Virus record (IMG/VR): IMGVR_UViG_3300044640_000916
Span: 1-21,769 of that record
Length of the DNA: 21,769 nt
Strand: one strand, 5' to 3'
Source: a virus
A program made the position numbers and the translations under genes. Positions 1,711 to 18,203 of this stretch are shown here, piece by piece; position 1 is the first letter of the stretch, and every line of letters begins with the position of its first letter. The notes beneath the pieces were generated by a model that did not search any database, was not told the origin of the DNA, and worked only from the letters and a program-made list of their open reading frames with translations.

Positions 1711-2097
1711 ATGCAAATGATGACAAAAATTATTGAGATGCACAAAAAATTTGACCTTGCTGCTGACCAGGCACCTAAAGCGTTACCCGACGATGAAAAA
1801 AACTTTAGGATTGTTGCAATGCAGGAAGAATTAGACGAGTATGCTGATGCAAATACTAGAGCTGATGAGCTCGATGCATTAGTTGATCTTCAGGTCTTTT
1901 TATTAGGCACAGTTTATAGGCATGGATTTGCCGACGTGTTTGATGAGGCTTTTAACCGAGTGATGGATGCCAATATGCAGAAAATGCTAGCTGGTGAAGC
2001 TTTGCACTCCAAGCGTGGATTTGCCCGTGATTTGGTCAAGCCAGCTGGTTGGATCGCGCCAAACTTATCAGATTTAACTGGAGATCATCATGAGTGA
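1711..2097 (+). CDS. MazG-like / PRA-PH-like nucleotide pyrophosphatase
   Basis: The 128-residue helical protein carries the all-alpha NTP pyrophosphatase signature: EELDEY (residues 39-44) on one helix and ADELDALVDL (residues 51-60) on the next, which supply the acidic metal ligands, then VYRHGF and FNRVMDANMQKM. This arrangement is seen in phage proteins usually labelled phosphoribosyl-ATP pyrophosphohydrolase-like. The reaction would be dNTP to dNMP plus pyrophosphate; which nucleotide is not shown. In this neighbourhood dCTP (to make dCMP, as T4 gp56 does) is an attractive but unproven substrate. ATG 1711 is chosen because AGGT lies 7 bases upstream; ATGs at 1717 and 1720 are alternatives. 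The C-terminus overlaps the next gene. Confidence 0.8.
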   Translation: MQMMTKIIEMHKKFDLAADQAPKALPDDEKNFRIVAMQEELDEYADANTRADELDALVDLQVFLLGTVYRHGFADVFDEAFNRVMDANMQKMLAGEALHSKRGFARDLVKPAGWIAPNLSDLTGDHHE

Positions 2098-2374
2098 AGG
2101 TAAAAAATTTGATGGCGATAAAGCTAGATTTGATTTAATTCCATTGCTAGCATTAGAGGGCGCCGCTAAAGTTATGGGCTTTGGCGCCCAAAAATATGGT
2201 GCATGGAATTGGTTAGCCGTTGAAAATGCTGAAGCTAGATATACAGCCGCTTTATTGCGTCATTTGGCATTGCATCAAGCCGGTGAAATGATCGACCAAG
2301 AATCGGGCTTTAAACATATTGATCATATTTTATGCAATGCTTTATTTTTGGCAGCATTAAACAAGGATAAATAA
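2090..2374 (+). CDS. dATP/dGTP diphosphohydrolase-like protein (DUF5664 type)
   Basis: The 94-residue protein matches the pattern of the small DUF5664 / dATP-dGTP diphosphohydrolase N-terminal family: KFDGDKARFDLIPLLALEG (residues 6-24), FGAQKYGAWNW (about 31-41), RYTAALLRHLALHQAGE (about 50-66) and ESGFKHIDHILCNALFL (about 71-87), with the conserved His and acidic residues in order. Members are related to MazG-fold enzymes that strip pyrophosphate from purine dNTPs. GGAG lies 8 bases before ATG 2090, which overlaps the end of the MazG-like gene, and the TAA overlaps the next ATG (TAATG). It would act on the dNTP pool. Substrate is inferred from the family only. No purZ-like gene is present in the window. 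Confidence 0.75.
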   Translation: MSEGKKFDGDKARFDLIPLLALEGAAKVMGFGAQKYGAWNWLAVENAEARYTAALLRHLALHQAGEMIDQESGFKHIDHILCNALFLAALNKDK

Positions 2375-3183
2375 TGCTTAACTACAACGACGCATTGATT
2401 GAAATTATTAGAGATGGCGATGAAGTGCCGAGCCGTGCAGGTCCGGTGCTTCGCTTAAGCCATCAGTTTTTAACGTTTGACTTGCGCGATGGCTTTCCAT
2501 TATTGACCGGGCGTAAAGCTTTTTATAAAGGCATGCTTGCTGAATTGGAATGCTTTGTCAAGGGCTTTACTAACATTGATGAGTATACATCACGCGGCTG
2601 TAATTTCTGGACAGCTAACTTAGAAGAGTGGAATAATAAACGCGGCACCCCAGGCAATAAAAACCTAGGTCACATTTATCCTTACCAATTGCGCCACTTT
2701 AATGGGGTTGATCAGCTCCGCACCGTTATTAACACGGCTAAAGCTGACCCTACATCACGCCGTTTATTGGTTAGCTATTGGAATCCAGCCGAGTTAGATA
2801 AGGGTGCATTGCCGCCGTGCCATTACTCTTGGCAGTTGAGTATTGTTAATGGCTATTTGGATTTAATGTTCACCATGAGATCCTGCGATATGGCTTTGGG
2901 CTTTCCTACTGATTTGGGTCATTATGCTGGCCTTAATCATTTGATTGCCAATGAGCTAGGCTTAAGACCGCGTTTTGTCAGTGCATCAATTGCAGACGCA
3001 CACATTTACAAGCAAAACCTAGACGGCGTTAAGGAATATTTAACACGCCAACAGCATCCATTACCACAGATTGAATTAAATGCGCCCGCTGGCATGCCAG
3101 TTGAGCAGTTTGATGCATCTAAAGTAGTTTTTATTAATTATCAGCATGAAAGTGCTATTGATATGGGCGGCATGGCCGCTTAA
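2374..3183 (+). CDS. Thymidylate-synthase-family enzyme, predicted dCMP methylase or hydroxymethylase
   Basis: A full-length TS fold of 269 residues (E. coli ThyA has 264). Catalytic features match: R21, E57 (in AELECF), the R129/R130 pair that contacts the partner subunit's phosphate site, nucleophile C149 in LPPCH, R169-S170-C171-D172, and H210/Y212 in DAHIY. The position of ThyA N177 (LPFNIASY) is D180 here (FPTDLGHY). Asn at this site selects dUMP; Asp is found in T4 dCMP hydroxymethylase, and the Asn-to-Asp change in TS turns it towards dCMP. The enzyme therefore likely uses methylene-tetrahydrofolate to modify C5 of dCMP; methyl or hydroxymethyl cannot be told by eye. AAGGAT precedes the ATG, which overlaps the previous TAA. 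Plain ThyA is the less likely alternative. Confidence 0.8.
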   Translation: MLNYNDALIEIIRDGDEVPSRAGPVLRLSHQFLTFDLRDGFPLLTGRKAFYKGMLAELECFVKGFTNIDEYTSRGCNFWTANLEEWNNKRGTPGNKNLGHIYPYQLRHFNGVDQLRTVINTAKADPTSRRLLVSYWNPAELDKGALPPCHYSWQLSIVNGYLDLMFTMRSCDMALGFPTDLGHYAGLNHLIANELGLRPRFVSASIADAHIYKQNLDGVKEYLTRQQHPLPQIELNAPAGMPVEQFDASKVVFINYQHESAIDMGGMAA

Positions 3184-3196
3184 CAAGGAGAAAAGT

Positions 3197-3487
3197 ATGA
3201 AAACAACCACAAAAAAACCTACATTATTACAAGCAACAATTGCAAAGCGTAACGCAAAAATGCCCGCTGAAAATAACAGTGGCTATCGCGTTATTCAAAA
3301 ACTTGCAAAAGAAATGCTGTTAATTGTTGAGCCCGGTGCAATTATTAAATTACCCCATGAAGATCAAAATAAAACTATAGCAAGCCTGAGAAAAACAAAG
3401 CATTTAACAATTGATCAAAAAGATAAATGCTTAGGCCTTGTTTCAAGAATAAAACACGAACTACTTGAATCACAAGCCCAAAAATGA
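3197..3487 (+). CDS. Hypothetical basic protein (96 aa)
   Basis: The frame is open from 3146, but ATG 3197 is preferred because AAGGAG lies 7 bases upstream and the longer version would run into the end of the TS-like gene. The protein begins MKTTTKKPTLLQATIAKRNAK and is rich in Lys, with a predicted helical C-terminus (DQKDKCLGLVSRIKHELLES). No family is recognised. It is placed between the TS-like enzyme and the deaminase, with an ATGA overlap to the latter, so co-expression with the nucleotide genes is certain, but a role in that pathway is only a guess. Confidence 0.65.
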   Translation: MKTTTKKPTLLQATIAKRNAKMPAENNSGYRVIQKLAKEMLLIVEPGAIIKLPHEDQNKTIASLRKTKHLTIDQKDKCLGLVSRIKHELLESQAQK

Positions 3488-3939
3488 GAATTGACCTCCA
3501 CAATTATTTGGTTAACCTGGCCAAAGTTGCAGCAACACGAGCAACCTGTAAAAAGCGCGCTGTTGGCGCAGTGATTGCAGATGCAAACAATAAAGTGATT
3601 GCTGTGGCTTATAACGGCCCTCCAAGTGGCCAACCGCATTGCCATGAAAAGCCATGCGTTGCATTAACTTTGTCGGCGCCCGCTAGTCATTTAGCTTGCC
3701 GTGCAATACATGGTGAGGCCAATGCCTTAATGCTAGCTGGGCGTCATGCTGAAGGTGGCACGCTTGCAATTACAACCTCACCATGCCTTGAATGCGCAAA
3801 GCTAATTGTTAACGCTGGTATTAAAACAGTTATCTTTGGTGAGACCAATAGATTATTTAATGGAGCCAATACTCTATATTCCCAATCGCCTAAGGACTTA
3901 TTGGAGTCCGCTGGTATTTTAGTTAAGGAAATTGTATGA
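3484..3939 (+). CDS. dCMP deaminase-like zinc enzyme
   Basis: The 151-residue protein follows the dCMP deaminase (ComEB/cd) layout: CKKRAVGAVI (residues 22-31), YNGPPSGQPHCHEKPC (about 43-58, which in T4 dCMP deaminase helps hold a second zinc), C72, then HGE (76-78) with the catalytic Glu, and PCLEC (100-104) giving the two zinc cysteines. The usual motif is HAE; the Gly is a rare but compatible change. It would convert dCMP to dUMP, possibly under dCTP/dTTP control as in the family. Beside a dCMP-type TS homologue it would control how dCMP is shared between modification and thymidylate supply. It overlaps both neighbours by ATGA. Confidence 0.85.
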   Translation: MRIDLHNYLVNLAKVAATRATCKKRAVGAVIADANNKVIAVAYNGPPSGQPHCHEKPCVALTLSAPASHLACRAIHGEANALMLAGRHAEGGTLAITTSPCLECAKLIVNAGIKTVIFGETNRLFNGANTLYSQSPKDLLESAGILVKEIV

Positions 3940-4073
3940 AAGAAGAGAAAAAGCAAATCGGCGTTATTTTGCCAAAAGCATTGGTAGAGCAATTGGATCA
4001 AGCAGCAAAGAACCAAGGCCTAAAGCGCTCTGGTTATATTCGCCAGCTATTAATCCAGGTTTTAAATCAATAA
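3936..4073 (+). CDS. Ribbon-helix-helix (Arc/CopG-like) protein, 45 aa
   Basis: ATG 3936 overlaps the deaminase stop (ATGA), and AAGGAA is about 5 bases upstream. A longer ORF in another frame (start 3932) covers the same bases but lacks these signals. The protein MKEEKKQIGVILPKALVEQL continues DQAAKNQGLKRSGYIRQLL and fits the ribbon-helix-helix plan: a short basic beta strand (KKQIGVILP), helix 1 (KALVEQLDQAAKNQG), turn and helix 2 (KRSGYIRQLLIQVL). Such dimers bind DNA at tandem or palindromic operators and often repress their own or nearby promoters. A target in the 913-1131 control region is plausible but inferred. Confidence 0.75.
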   Translation: MKEEKKQIGVILPKALVEQLDQAAKNQGLKRSGYIRQLLIQVLNQ

Positions 4074-7034: not shown

Positions 7035-7961
7035 TTAAATTGGATTGAAAGTCCCAGAGGATGTAAACACATGATATGTGAATCCTCCAGATTGTGAAAT
7101 TGAGCCACCATTGGCTCTTTGACCGCCAGAATAACGAATAATTACTATCCCAGAGCCGCCTCTGCCGCCAGCGCCTGGACTACCTCTGTCCTGACCGCCA
7201 CCGCCACCACCACCGCCTAGACCATCTGTCCCAGGTCCTCCAGCGGAAGCGTAAGCACCGCCACCACCGCCACCACCAGAGCCACCAGTGCCATTCCAGG
7301 CTGAGTTGCAACCACCGCCACCGCCACCAGCATAAACAACACCATTGACCCAAGTAGCTCCTGGACCTCCATTGCCGCCATTGCCTGGGTTTCCGTTATA
7401 TCCATCGGCACCAGTGCCACCAGCACCACCGCCACCGCCAGCGGCATATTGAGGAGCTCTACCTCCTGGGTTTCCTTGTCCAGGTGTGGCTGCTGCTCCA
7501 GCTGTGCCATATCCAGCACCACCACCACCAGAGCCACCAACTCCAGGCGCTGTGCCACCAGGGCTGCCACCTCTACCGCCACCGACTGCTGTGGCAATGC
7601 CAGCAATTGATGAATCACCTCCATTTTGTCCTGGCGCTCCACCTCCTCCAACTGTTATTGCTGTCGGACCAGAGCCAAGTAGGTTACCGCTGGATGCAAT
7701 ATAACCACCACCGCCACCACCGCCACCGCCACCATTGTTACTTTGTGCGCTATTACCACCACCACCACCGCCCACAATCAAATAATCAACTGGGATAGAT
7801 TTTGATTTTCCATAAAAGTCACTCATGGCAATCACGCCACTTGGGACCCTAGCCAGTGTCCTTGAATCAGGCTCTCCCATGCTTGTTGTTGCATTGGATG
7901 CTCTGCCCAATTCCACAGATACATTGGAAATCGATATTGTTCCAGAGCTTTGTAGAGCCAT
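7035..7961 (-). CDS. Glycine-rich fibre adhesin
   Basis: A 308-residue protein. Residues 1-57 form a fibre-type start ending SDFYGKSKSIP. VDYLIVGGGGGG then opens a roughly 200-residue glycine-rich domain with runs of up to ten Gly, interrupted by short turns. This pattern is found in polyglycine adhesin domains that fold as packed polyglycine-II helices (as in phage S16 gp38). The C-terminus GSGIVIIRYSGG and FTYHVFTSSGTFNPI is typical of this domain class. It is likely a receptor-binding adhesin on the tail. The start overlaps the upstream stop (TAATG). Confidence 0.85.
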   Translation of the reverse strand: MALQSSGTISISNVSVELGRASNATTSMGEPDSRTLARVPSGVIAMSDFYGKSKSIPVDYLIVGGGGGGNSAQSNNGGGGGGGGGGYIASSGNLLGSGPTAITVGGGGAPGQNGGDSSIAGIATAVGGGRGGSPGGTAPGVGGSGGGGAGYGTAGAAATPGQGNPGGRAPQYAAGGGGGAGGTGADGYNGNPGNGGNGGPGATWVNGVVYAGGGGGGCNSAWNGTGGSGGGGGGGAYASAGGPGTDGLGGGGGGGGQDRGSPGAGGRGGSGIVIIRYSGGQRANGGSISQSGGFTYHVFTSSGTFNPI

Positions 7962-17039: not shown

Positions 17040-18203
17040 TTAAAACTTATAAATGTCGAAATAACCAGACTCAACCGCTTTAGCTGCTCCGCTAAACTCA
17101 ATTGAAACTTGTTGATCCATACCACCGCTTGATGGGTCTGGGAATGATAATTGGGCGCCATGAATAACGAATGCCATGCCGCCATCATCATTTTCAACAG
17201 AGAATGCAATTGATACTGGAGTCTGACTTAACTTCTTAGCCATCAAATCCCAATTTTCATTGCTTAGATAAGCGCTACCAGATACTGTGATTGCGGCCAT
17301 GCCCAAAGCATACTGGCGAGGAGCTAATGTGCCCATACAGGTTTGTGGTGTTAAACCATTTGATAATGAGATTTGAAGTGACTGGATACAGAAATCAGCA
17401 ACTTCGCCCTCAACAATCACCAAGCCAATATCACTAGAGGCATTGAATGGCTGTGTCGTGCCAGCTGGTGTGATAGTGCGACCAGAAGTCATCTTTGGAA
17501 CTGGTGTGTCATATCCATTGCCCATGAACATAAAGCTGGACTCAACGATTGAGCCATATGTCATGGATAGATTCATCTGGTTCACCAACATACCACGATA
17601 AGCAATTGCCTTATCAGTTAAGTCTGTGAAATCTTTTTCGATTGAGAATGAAATTGGCTGAGTGCCCACTGATAATCGTTCAGAGCGAGTCAATTCCATT
17701 GGACCAGACTCAGAGGCAATAGTTTCCTTAGCCACTGTCAAAACAGTTGTGCCAGGAGTTGTCTCTGTGTCTACAGCAGTCACATACATAGGACCATTGT
17801 TCTTTGTCTCAGTTGCATTTGAAACAATGAACAAGTCACCAACGCTGTAAGTTAATGAGGTCGTGTCTGAAGTGAATGTCTTGTCAATTGGGTTCACTGT
17901 CCAATCATTAGCATCGATAGCGCCTGGCGTCCAGACTGGCTGCATCATTGCGCCACGAATAAAATCATTCAAGGCTGTATCACTAGACAATTCAGCATTG
18001 ATGTCACCACCAACATCTAAACCAACTTGCACCTGACCGCCAGATGTGCGGTCAGATTGAATCTCAGCAGACTCAGCTGTTTGCGGAGTGCCTGATAAGC
18101 TTTCGCTTGTATAGCGCACTGTTTTAAAATCACCAGTCGCTGGTGTCACACCATAGACTGTCTCCTCAATTGAGGAAATTTTTACTAGATTTGAGGATGA
18201 CAT
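17040..18203 (-). CDS. Major tail (tube) protein
   Basis: The 387-residue protein begins MSSSNLVKISSIEETVYGVT and continues with FKTVRYTSESLSGTPQTAES and SDRTSGGQVQVGLDVGGDIN. This start is typical of phage tail tube proteins of the PF18906-like group. A domain inserted at about residues 95-160 (TYSVGDLFIVSNATETKNNG...VLTVAKETIAS) has a beta-rich, small-barrel look. The end, MDQQVSIEFSGAAKAVES, is also family-like. AAGGACT lies in the end of the upstream gene, 6 bases before the ATG. The gene is followed by structured element B. Expected to be one of the most abundant virion proteins. Confidence 0.85.
   Translation of the reverse strand: MSSSNLVKISSIEETVYGVTPATGDFKTVRYTSESLSGTPQTAESAEIQSDRTSGGQVQVGLDVGGDINAELSSDTALNDFIRGAMMQPVWTPGAIDANDWTVNPIDKTFTSDTTSLTYSVGDLFIVSNATETKNNGPMYVTAVDTETTPGTTVLTVAKETIASESGPMELTRSERLSVGTQPISFSIEKDFTDLTDKAIAYRGMLVNQMNLSMTYGSIVESSFMFMGNGYDTPVPKMTSGRTITPAGTTQPFNASSDIGLVIVEGEVADFCIQSLQISLSNGLTPQTCMGTLAPRQYALGMAAITVSGSAYLSNENWDLMAKKLSQTPVSIAFSVENDDGGMAFVIHGAQLSFPDPSSGGMDQQVSIEFSGAAKAVESGYFDIYKF

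Follow-up and report, generated by a model that had tools for sequence, protein, structure and literature searches.

A likely cytosine-modification cassette built around a dCMP-type thymidylate synthase homologue in an uncultured phage

The locus

The DNA considered here, the window, is a viral fragment of 21,769 bases from IMG/VR (record IMGVR_UViG_3300044640_000916), with a GC content of 43%, whose (-) strand carries a tail and lysis module and whose left end has a short block of genes on the (+) strand. Within that block a homologue of thymidylate synthase (TS) stands among enzymes of nucleotide metabolism, an arrangement which is likely to be a cytosine-modification cassette acting on deoxycytidine monophosphate (dCMP). 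The features of the block are as follows.

1132-1677, + strand: Enc34-type single-stranded DNA (ssDNA)-binding protein, a replication gene upstream of the cassette (PF10991, E 3e-49)
1711-2097, + strand: MazG/PRA-PH-like pyrophosphohydrolase (PF01503, 24.5 bits; PHROG 671 'nucleotide pyrophosphohydrolase', E 3e-16)
2090-2374, + strand: PF18909 protein, of the dATP/dGTP diphosphohydrolase N-terminal type, the DUF5664-type protein of the original prediction (PF18909, E 3e-29; PHROG 801, E 7e-38)
2374-3183, + strand: dCMP-type TS homologue of 269 amino acids, the proposed dCMP C5-methyltransferase (PF00303, E 7e-65)
2911-2913, + strand: codon GAT for Asp180, the substrate-specificity position (from the sequence and alignment)
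3197-3487, + strand: hypothetical protein of 96 amino acids between TS and deaminase (weak match to PHROG 1828, E 0.006; no match in a Pfam search)
3484-3939, + strand: dCMP deaminase (PF00383, E 1.5e-20; PHROG 174, E 1e-41; HGE and PCxxC motifs)
3936-4073, + strand: open reading frame (ORF) of 45 amino acids, ribbon-helix-helix-like by eye (read off the sequence)

Most adjacent genes overlap at their start and stop codons, by 1-8 bases, in the manner of an operon with translational coupling: the pyrophosphohydrolase and PF18909 genes share 8 bases, the PF18909 and TS genes share a single base, and an ATGA joins the hypothetical gene to that of the deaminase and the latter to the 45-residue ORF. 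The PF01503 score of the MazG-like protein, set against a cut-off of 21.3 bits, is weak when taken alone, and the match to PHROG 671 stands beside it. With these Pfam and PHROG matches, the MazG-like pyrophosphatase, DUF5664-type protein and dCMP deaminase that the original prediction had placed beside the TS homologue are borne out; the 96-residue hypothetical gene and the 45-residue ORF are additions to its list.

Fold and active site of the TS homologue

An AlphaFold2 model of the TS homologue (mean pLDDT, the predicted local distance difference test, of 95) finds its best PDB matches in thymidylate synthases, with template modelling (TM) scores of 0.92-0.95. Escherichia coli ThyA, at 31% identity, is like it in fold, in C-terminal tail and in all catalytic residues but one, the residues kept being R21, E58, W80, Y94, R126, R127, C146, H147, R166, S167, D169, H207 and Y209 in ThyA numbering. 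The difference lies at position 177, where ThyA carries the Asn of canonical enzymes acting on deoxyuridine monophosphate (dUMP) and the window enzyme carries Asp180. Both the retention of the main catalytic residues and this Asp had been read from the window sequence beforehand, and alignment to ThyA confirms them. The nucleophile of the window enzyme, Cys149, is followed by His150 (position 147) and has Leu146 (position 143) three residues before it.

The residue at position 177 is of consequence in that an Asn177 to Asp change reportedly switches TS from dUMP to dCMP, so that 5-methyl-dCMP is made, and that contigs with modified cytosine are distinguished by Asp177 (PMC8670742). In this regard, the window enzyme combines its Asp with an intact Cys, Glu58, Tyr94, Arg pair and His207/Tyr209, as expected of a dCMP-preferring TS, and the main active-site columns of the alignment are invariant between it and 19 other Asp177 relatives. 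We strongly infer a preference for dCMP. His at position 147 was also considered as a sign of the substrate and was dropped, since this residue varies among Asp177 enzymes (His, Pro, Val, Tyr or Thr).

Distribution and gene neighbourhood of Asp177 enzymes

A single-sequence scan of IMG/VR for close relatives of the window TS returned none, and Asp177 relatives were found instead with an alignment query and a DNA motif for Asp177 enzymes (RS-C-D...G.P.D..Y). The motif, which can match only ThyA of the RSCD form, has 19 matches in IMG/VR against 1 in 84,980 cellular genomes. Since ThyA is present in 9 of the 14 genomes of a cellular control panel, this search is estimated to have covered, in all probability, tens of thousands of cellular ThyA genes. 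The sole cellular match (L120; compared records carry L numbers) comes from a Lachnospiraceae metagenome-assembled genome, is almost identical in sequence to TS from viral contigs of 51-208 kb (L006, L019), and may be viral DNA binned with that genome.

Gene context was surveyed in 50 viral records besides the window, picked by their TS alone, 32 with Asp177 and 18 with Asn or Ser at that position. Of the 32 Asp177 records, 26 have a PF01503 pyrophosphohydrolase gene no more than 2.5 kb from TS, as against 0 of the 18 others (Fisher 7.5e-9). A dCMP deaminase is found within the same distance in 9/32 against 0/18 (p 0.018), and anywhere in the record in 20/32 against 6/18; as the main context signal the deaminase distance is the weaker of the two partners (9/32 against 26/32) and was set aside. 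The PF18909 family occurs in five of the Asp177 records (0/18 in the others), within 2.5 kb of the TS gene in L009, L012, L017, L018 and L074, and all four families of the window sit in one cassette in L009, L012 and L018. ThyX occurs in none of the 50 records, nor does a second ThyA in any Asp177 record.

The MazG-like protein of the window ends in a C-terminal D-x-V-KP-x-GW motif. Several partner pyrophosphohydrolases share such an ending (D-x-[VI]-KP-x-GW), which is found near 14 of 54 Asp177 TS genes and none of 38 with Asn or Ser; with 14/54 only, KPxGW was dropped as a signature by which every such partner could be recognised.

Phylogeny and cultured relatives

A careful tree of 79 rows calls for three or more changes to account for Asp177, and well-supported branches force two of these; the tree shows gain or loss of the residue on more than one occasion. 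The TS of the window groups with that of Salmonella phages S144 and ZCSE2 and with the L039 group (support 87/94), all having a common insertion (ANL...N) that is missing from ThyA. Three TS with Ser at 177 (L062, L068, L083) fall inside an Asn177 clade, and two of the three have a gene for dihydrofolate reductase (DHFR) nearby.

S144 and ZCSE2 (Loughboroughvirus), whose TS sequences are identical to each other, resemble the window in Asp177, Leu143, the C-terminal tail and the insertion, and both carry a KPxGW-tailed pyrophosphohydrolase, homologous to that of the window (E 7e-9), directly upstream of TS. They differ in that the dCMP deaminase lies 5 kb off rather than in the cassette, Tyr takes the place of His at position 147, no PF18909 protein stands beside TS, and the TS is only ~37% identical to that of the window. 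The DNA of S144 is cut solely by SspI and PacI, enzymes with AT sites, from which a cytosine modification was inferred and for which no gene was found; the phage also encodes DHFR and thymidylate kinase (PMC7432712).

The second point of comparison is phage Xp12, in whose DNA 5-methylcytosine (5mC) replaces cytosine (PMC7653180), a modification known since 1968, and which was compared here through its relatives AXL1 and PaMx28 (Bosavirus/Pamexvirus). Of 31 enzymes tried on AXL1 DNA only 5 cut it, three of them with A/T-only sites, and the study calls the genetic mechanism unknown (PMC9206674). In these relatives the genes run pyrophosphohydrolase, Asp177 TS, a hypothetical gene in PaMx28, and dCMP deaminase, an order and set with homologues in the window: the pyrophosphohydrolase matches AXL1_64 (E 6e-13) and PaMx28_53 (E 5e-10), the deaminase matches PaMx28_50 (E 8e-15), and the ssDNA-binding protein is also shared with both phages (38% identity to PaMx28_66, E 2e-31). 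Like the window enzyme with its Leu, the TS of AXL1, PaMx28, Roseobacter phage RDJL Phi 1 (RDJL1) and Rhodobacter phage RcSimone-Hastad has no acidic residue three before Cys; however, these Xp12-type enzymes have Asn143 and Pro147 in place of Leu and His, and their cassettes have DHFR directly after and no PF18909 gene, whereas the window cassette has PF18909 and lacks DHFR. The cassette is known in kind from Xp12 but belongs to a separate enzyme lineage, and is therefore a variant of that kind.

Beside the Asp177 TS of RDJL Phi 1 and RcSimone-Hastad there is a pyrophosphohydrolase fused to a domain resembling a deoxynucleoside monophosphate (dNMP) kinase (gp18, labelled 'Cof hydrolase', L118:2950-3996, and gp24, L119:2651-3853, respectively), with matches of the fused part to PHROG 139, the deoxynucleoside monophosphate kinase family (E 3e-12 and 2e-10). 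Such a fusion would fit the needs of a pathway from deoxycytidine triphosphate (dCTP) through dCMP and modified dCMP to the diphosphate. The RcSimone-Hastad TS itself (L119:3857-4747) is labelled 'ThyX-like thymidylate synthase', and its sequence is of the ThyA type with Asp177. The modified contigs of the MetaGPA study (PMC8670742) likewise combine an Asp177 TS with PRA-PH and dCMP-deaminase domains. Unlike the window cassette, among whose genes none was found, they carry a carbamoyltransferase; the other discriminating site of that study is position 147, where the window keeps His.

Methyl or hydroxymethyl product

Phage T4, too, encodes a dCTPase along with a deaminase of dCMP, and its dCMP hydroxymethylase, gp42, is like the window enzyme in belonging to the TS superfamily and carrying Asp at 177. 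It is unlike it, at 16% identity, in having Asp three before Cys and Ser two before Tyr, and in lacking the C-terminal tail. These differences bear directly on a T4-like reading of the cassette, in which water would attack the methylene intermediate to give 5-hydroxymethyl-dCMP and, after a kinase step, 5-hydroxymethylcytosine in DNA. The proposed signature of dCMP hydroxymethylases is an Asp or Glu three before Cys together with a Ser or Thr two before Tyr, with the lack of a C-terminal tail as a further trait, and T4 gp42 with the D145N change reportedly makes no 5-hydroxymethyl-dCMP (PMC6400193). The comparison with ThyA, T4 gp42 and SPO1 gp29 that the original prediction had proposed finds Asp three before Cys in T4 gp42 and in the dUMP hydroxymethylase SPO1 gp29 (which has Ala, however, two before Tyr), Asn in the Xp12 relatives, and Leu in both ThyA and the window. 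Two before Tyr the window enzyme has His100, in LGHIY, and it retains a TS-like C-terminal tail (NYQHESAIDMGGMAA).

Leu146, the His in place of Ser/Thr and the presence of the tail point to 5-methyl-dCMP as the probable product, in preference to 5-hydroxymethyl-dCMP, and with the T4-type signature absent and 5-methyl favoured, Xp12 is the better precedent. The fold of the model, closest to ordinary TS, also speaks against a hydroxymethylase. In its favour are the shared Asp177, the trio of dCTP pyrophosphatase, deaminase and TS homologue in Shewanella phage Thanatos, whose cytosine is modified (PMC12838424), and the rarity of DHFR beside Asp177 TS genes, since a hydroxymethylase would not need it. 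Taken together, we regard a T4-like hydroxymethylase as unlikely.

As to how general Leu143 is, it is found in all members of the IMG/VR Asp177-motif sample that cover the position, a sample not chosen on 143; a second TS sample was seeded with LP[PA]C, a seed which precludes estimating the frequency of an acidic residue there. On a 51-kb viral contig (L020:2-1591, - strand) DHFR is fused to a TS half with Asp177, an arrangement that would fit methylase rather than hydroxymethylase chemistry.

The proposed pathway and its alternatives

On balance, we favour the view that the cassette performs a nucleotide-level modification of cytosine, in which dCMP would be converted to 5-methyl-dCMP before incorporation into DNA. 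Hydrolysis of dCTP to dCMP and pyrophosphate would fall to the MazG-like enzyme, possibly helped by the PF18909 protein, and would at once drain dCTP and supply the substrate. The TS homologue, its strongly predicted preference being for dCMP bound through Asp180, would add to C5 a one-carbon unit taken from methylene-tetrahydrofolate, after which a TS-like reduction, suggested by its residues, would give 5-methyl-dCMP and dihydrofolate. A kinase encoded outside the fragment, or one of the host, would raise 5-methyl-dCMP to 5-methyl-dCTP, and the polymerase would then incorporate 5-methyl-dC where dC would otherwise stand, which would shield the DNA against restriction, as the Xp12 precedent suggests. 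The dCMP deaminase may maintain the supply of thymidylate, starting either from dCMP or from 5-methyl-dC nucleotides, the second of these routes being one reported in cells infected with Xp12; in other words, it could supply dUMP or turn a 5-methyl-dC nucleotide into thymidylate.

A dCMP-type TS and modified cytosine are supported by the family-wide context of the residue, by the tree, and by two groups of cultured phages whose DNA is modified or resistant at cytosine sites. That much of the T4-like scheme originally put forward, namely a dCMP-type TS served by a pyrophosphohydrolase and modification at C, is supported; its T4-like chemistry is not, the hydroxymethylase signature being absent.

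Several observations weigh against the 5-methyl-dCMP pathway. The window encodes no DHFR, although the methylase yields dihydrofolate, the ORFs after the deaminase being the 45-residue ORF and hypotheticals; DHFR lies within 2.5 kb of TS in only 2/32 Asp177 records against 6/18 with Asn or Ser, which would not be expected from a methylase alone and counts mildly against a methyl product. No P-loop kinase-like ORF and no dNMP kinase is visible in the 21.8-kb window, in agreement with the original prediction, the window being a fragment with the rest of the genome outside it. The survey includes near-copies; the tree leaves 2-4 independent pairs, every difference among which runs in the right direction, although a paired test on so small a number could not reach significance. 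Both the window TS and that of ZCSE2 sit on long branches, so that their grouping is moderate evidence, and the Xp12-type TS forms a separate clade, ~29% identical to the window enzyme and differing from it at 143 and 147. Finally, the restriction data for S144 leave the kind of cytosine modification unspecified.

A quite improbable alternative is that the cassette mainly provides a reverse-order route to thymidylate, in which dCMP would be methylated and the 5-methyl-dCMP then deaminated by the neighbouring enzyme to thymidine monophosphate (dTMP), leaving ordinary cytosine in the DNA, any 5mC there being secondary, and the dUMP step dispensable during infection. The deaminases within 2.5 kb in 9/32 Asp177 records, none of which has a second ThyA or a ThyX, are consistent with such a route, as are titles cited in PMC11946847 that report, for cells infected with Xp12, a deaminase of 5-methyl-dCTP and a new biosynthesis of thymidylate. 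However, 12/32 Asp177 records show no deaminase, the pyrophosphohydrolase is the commoner partner, in keeping with a withdrawal of dCTP from DNA synthesis, and modification or restriction resistance is a property of the DNA itself in Xp12 and S144.

It is very doubtful that the enzyme is an ordinary dUMP TS with an incidental Asp in a cassette recycling dCTP to thymidine triphosphate for an AT-rich phage, for although dCTP to dCMP to dUMP to dTMP is complete with the cassette enzymes, the other residues are canonical and the window is 43% GC, the lone Asp177 match among the 84,980 cellular genomes means that Asp does not look neutral, Asp177 reportedly shifts preference to dCMP (PMC8670742), and the gene context of Asp177 enzymes is sharply unlike that of Asn177 enzymes.

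Other features of the window

The phage group of the window recurs across metagenomes, judged from copies of a tail protein (17040-18203, - strand) that are 94-100% identical on several other metagenome contigs (relatives L026-L038). None of the 13 contigs found through the tail protein carries TS or this deaminase, nearly all being short fragments and hence uninformative on the point. The tail module also encodes a strongly glycine-rich protein of 308 amino acids (7035-7961, - strand).

Implications

Replacement of cytosine throughout its DNA allows a phage to evade most restriction enzymes. The survey links the presence of Asp177 in TS with a neighbouring pyrophosphohydrolase gene, and specific candidate modification genes can now be named for S144 and AXL1, whose publications assign none; S144, unlike the uncultured phage of the window, is cultured, which makes the hypothesis directly testable. 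Should the reverse-order route prove true, many viral Asp177 TS genes would represent an overlooked second way to thymine. Cytosine-modified phages are probably under-recognised, because genes of this kind are annotated simply as thymidylate synthase.

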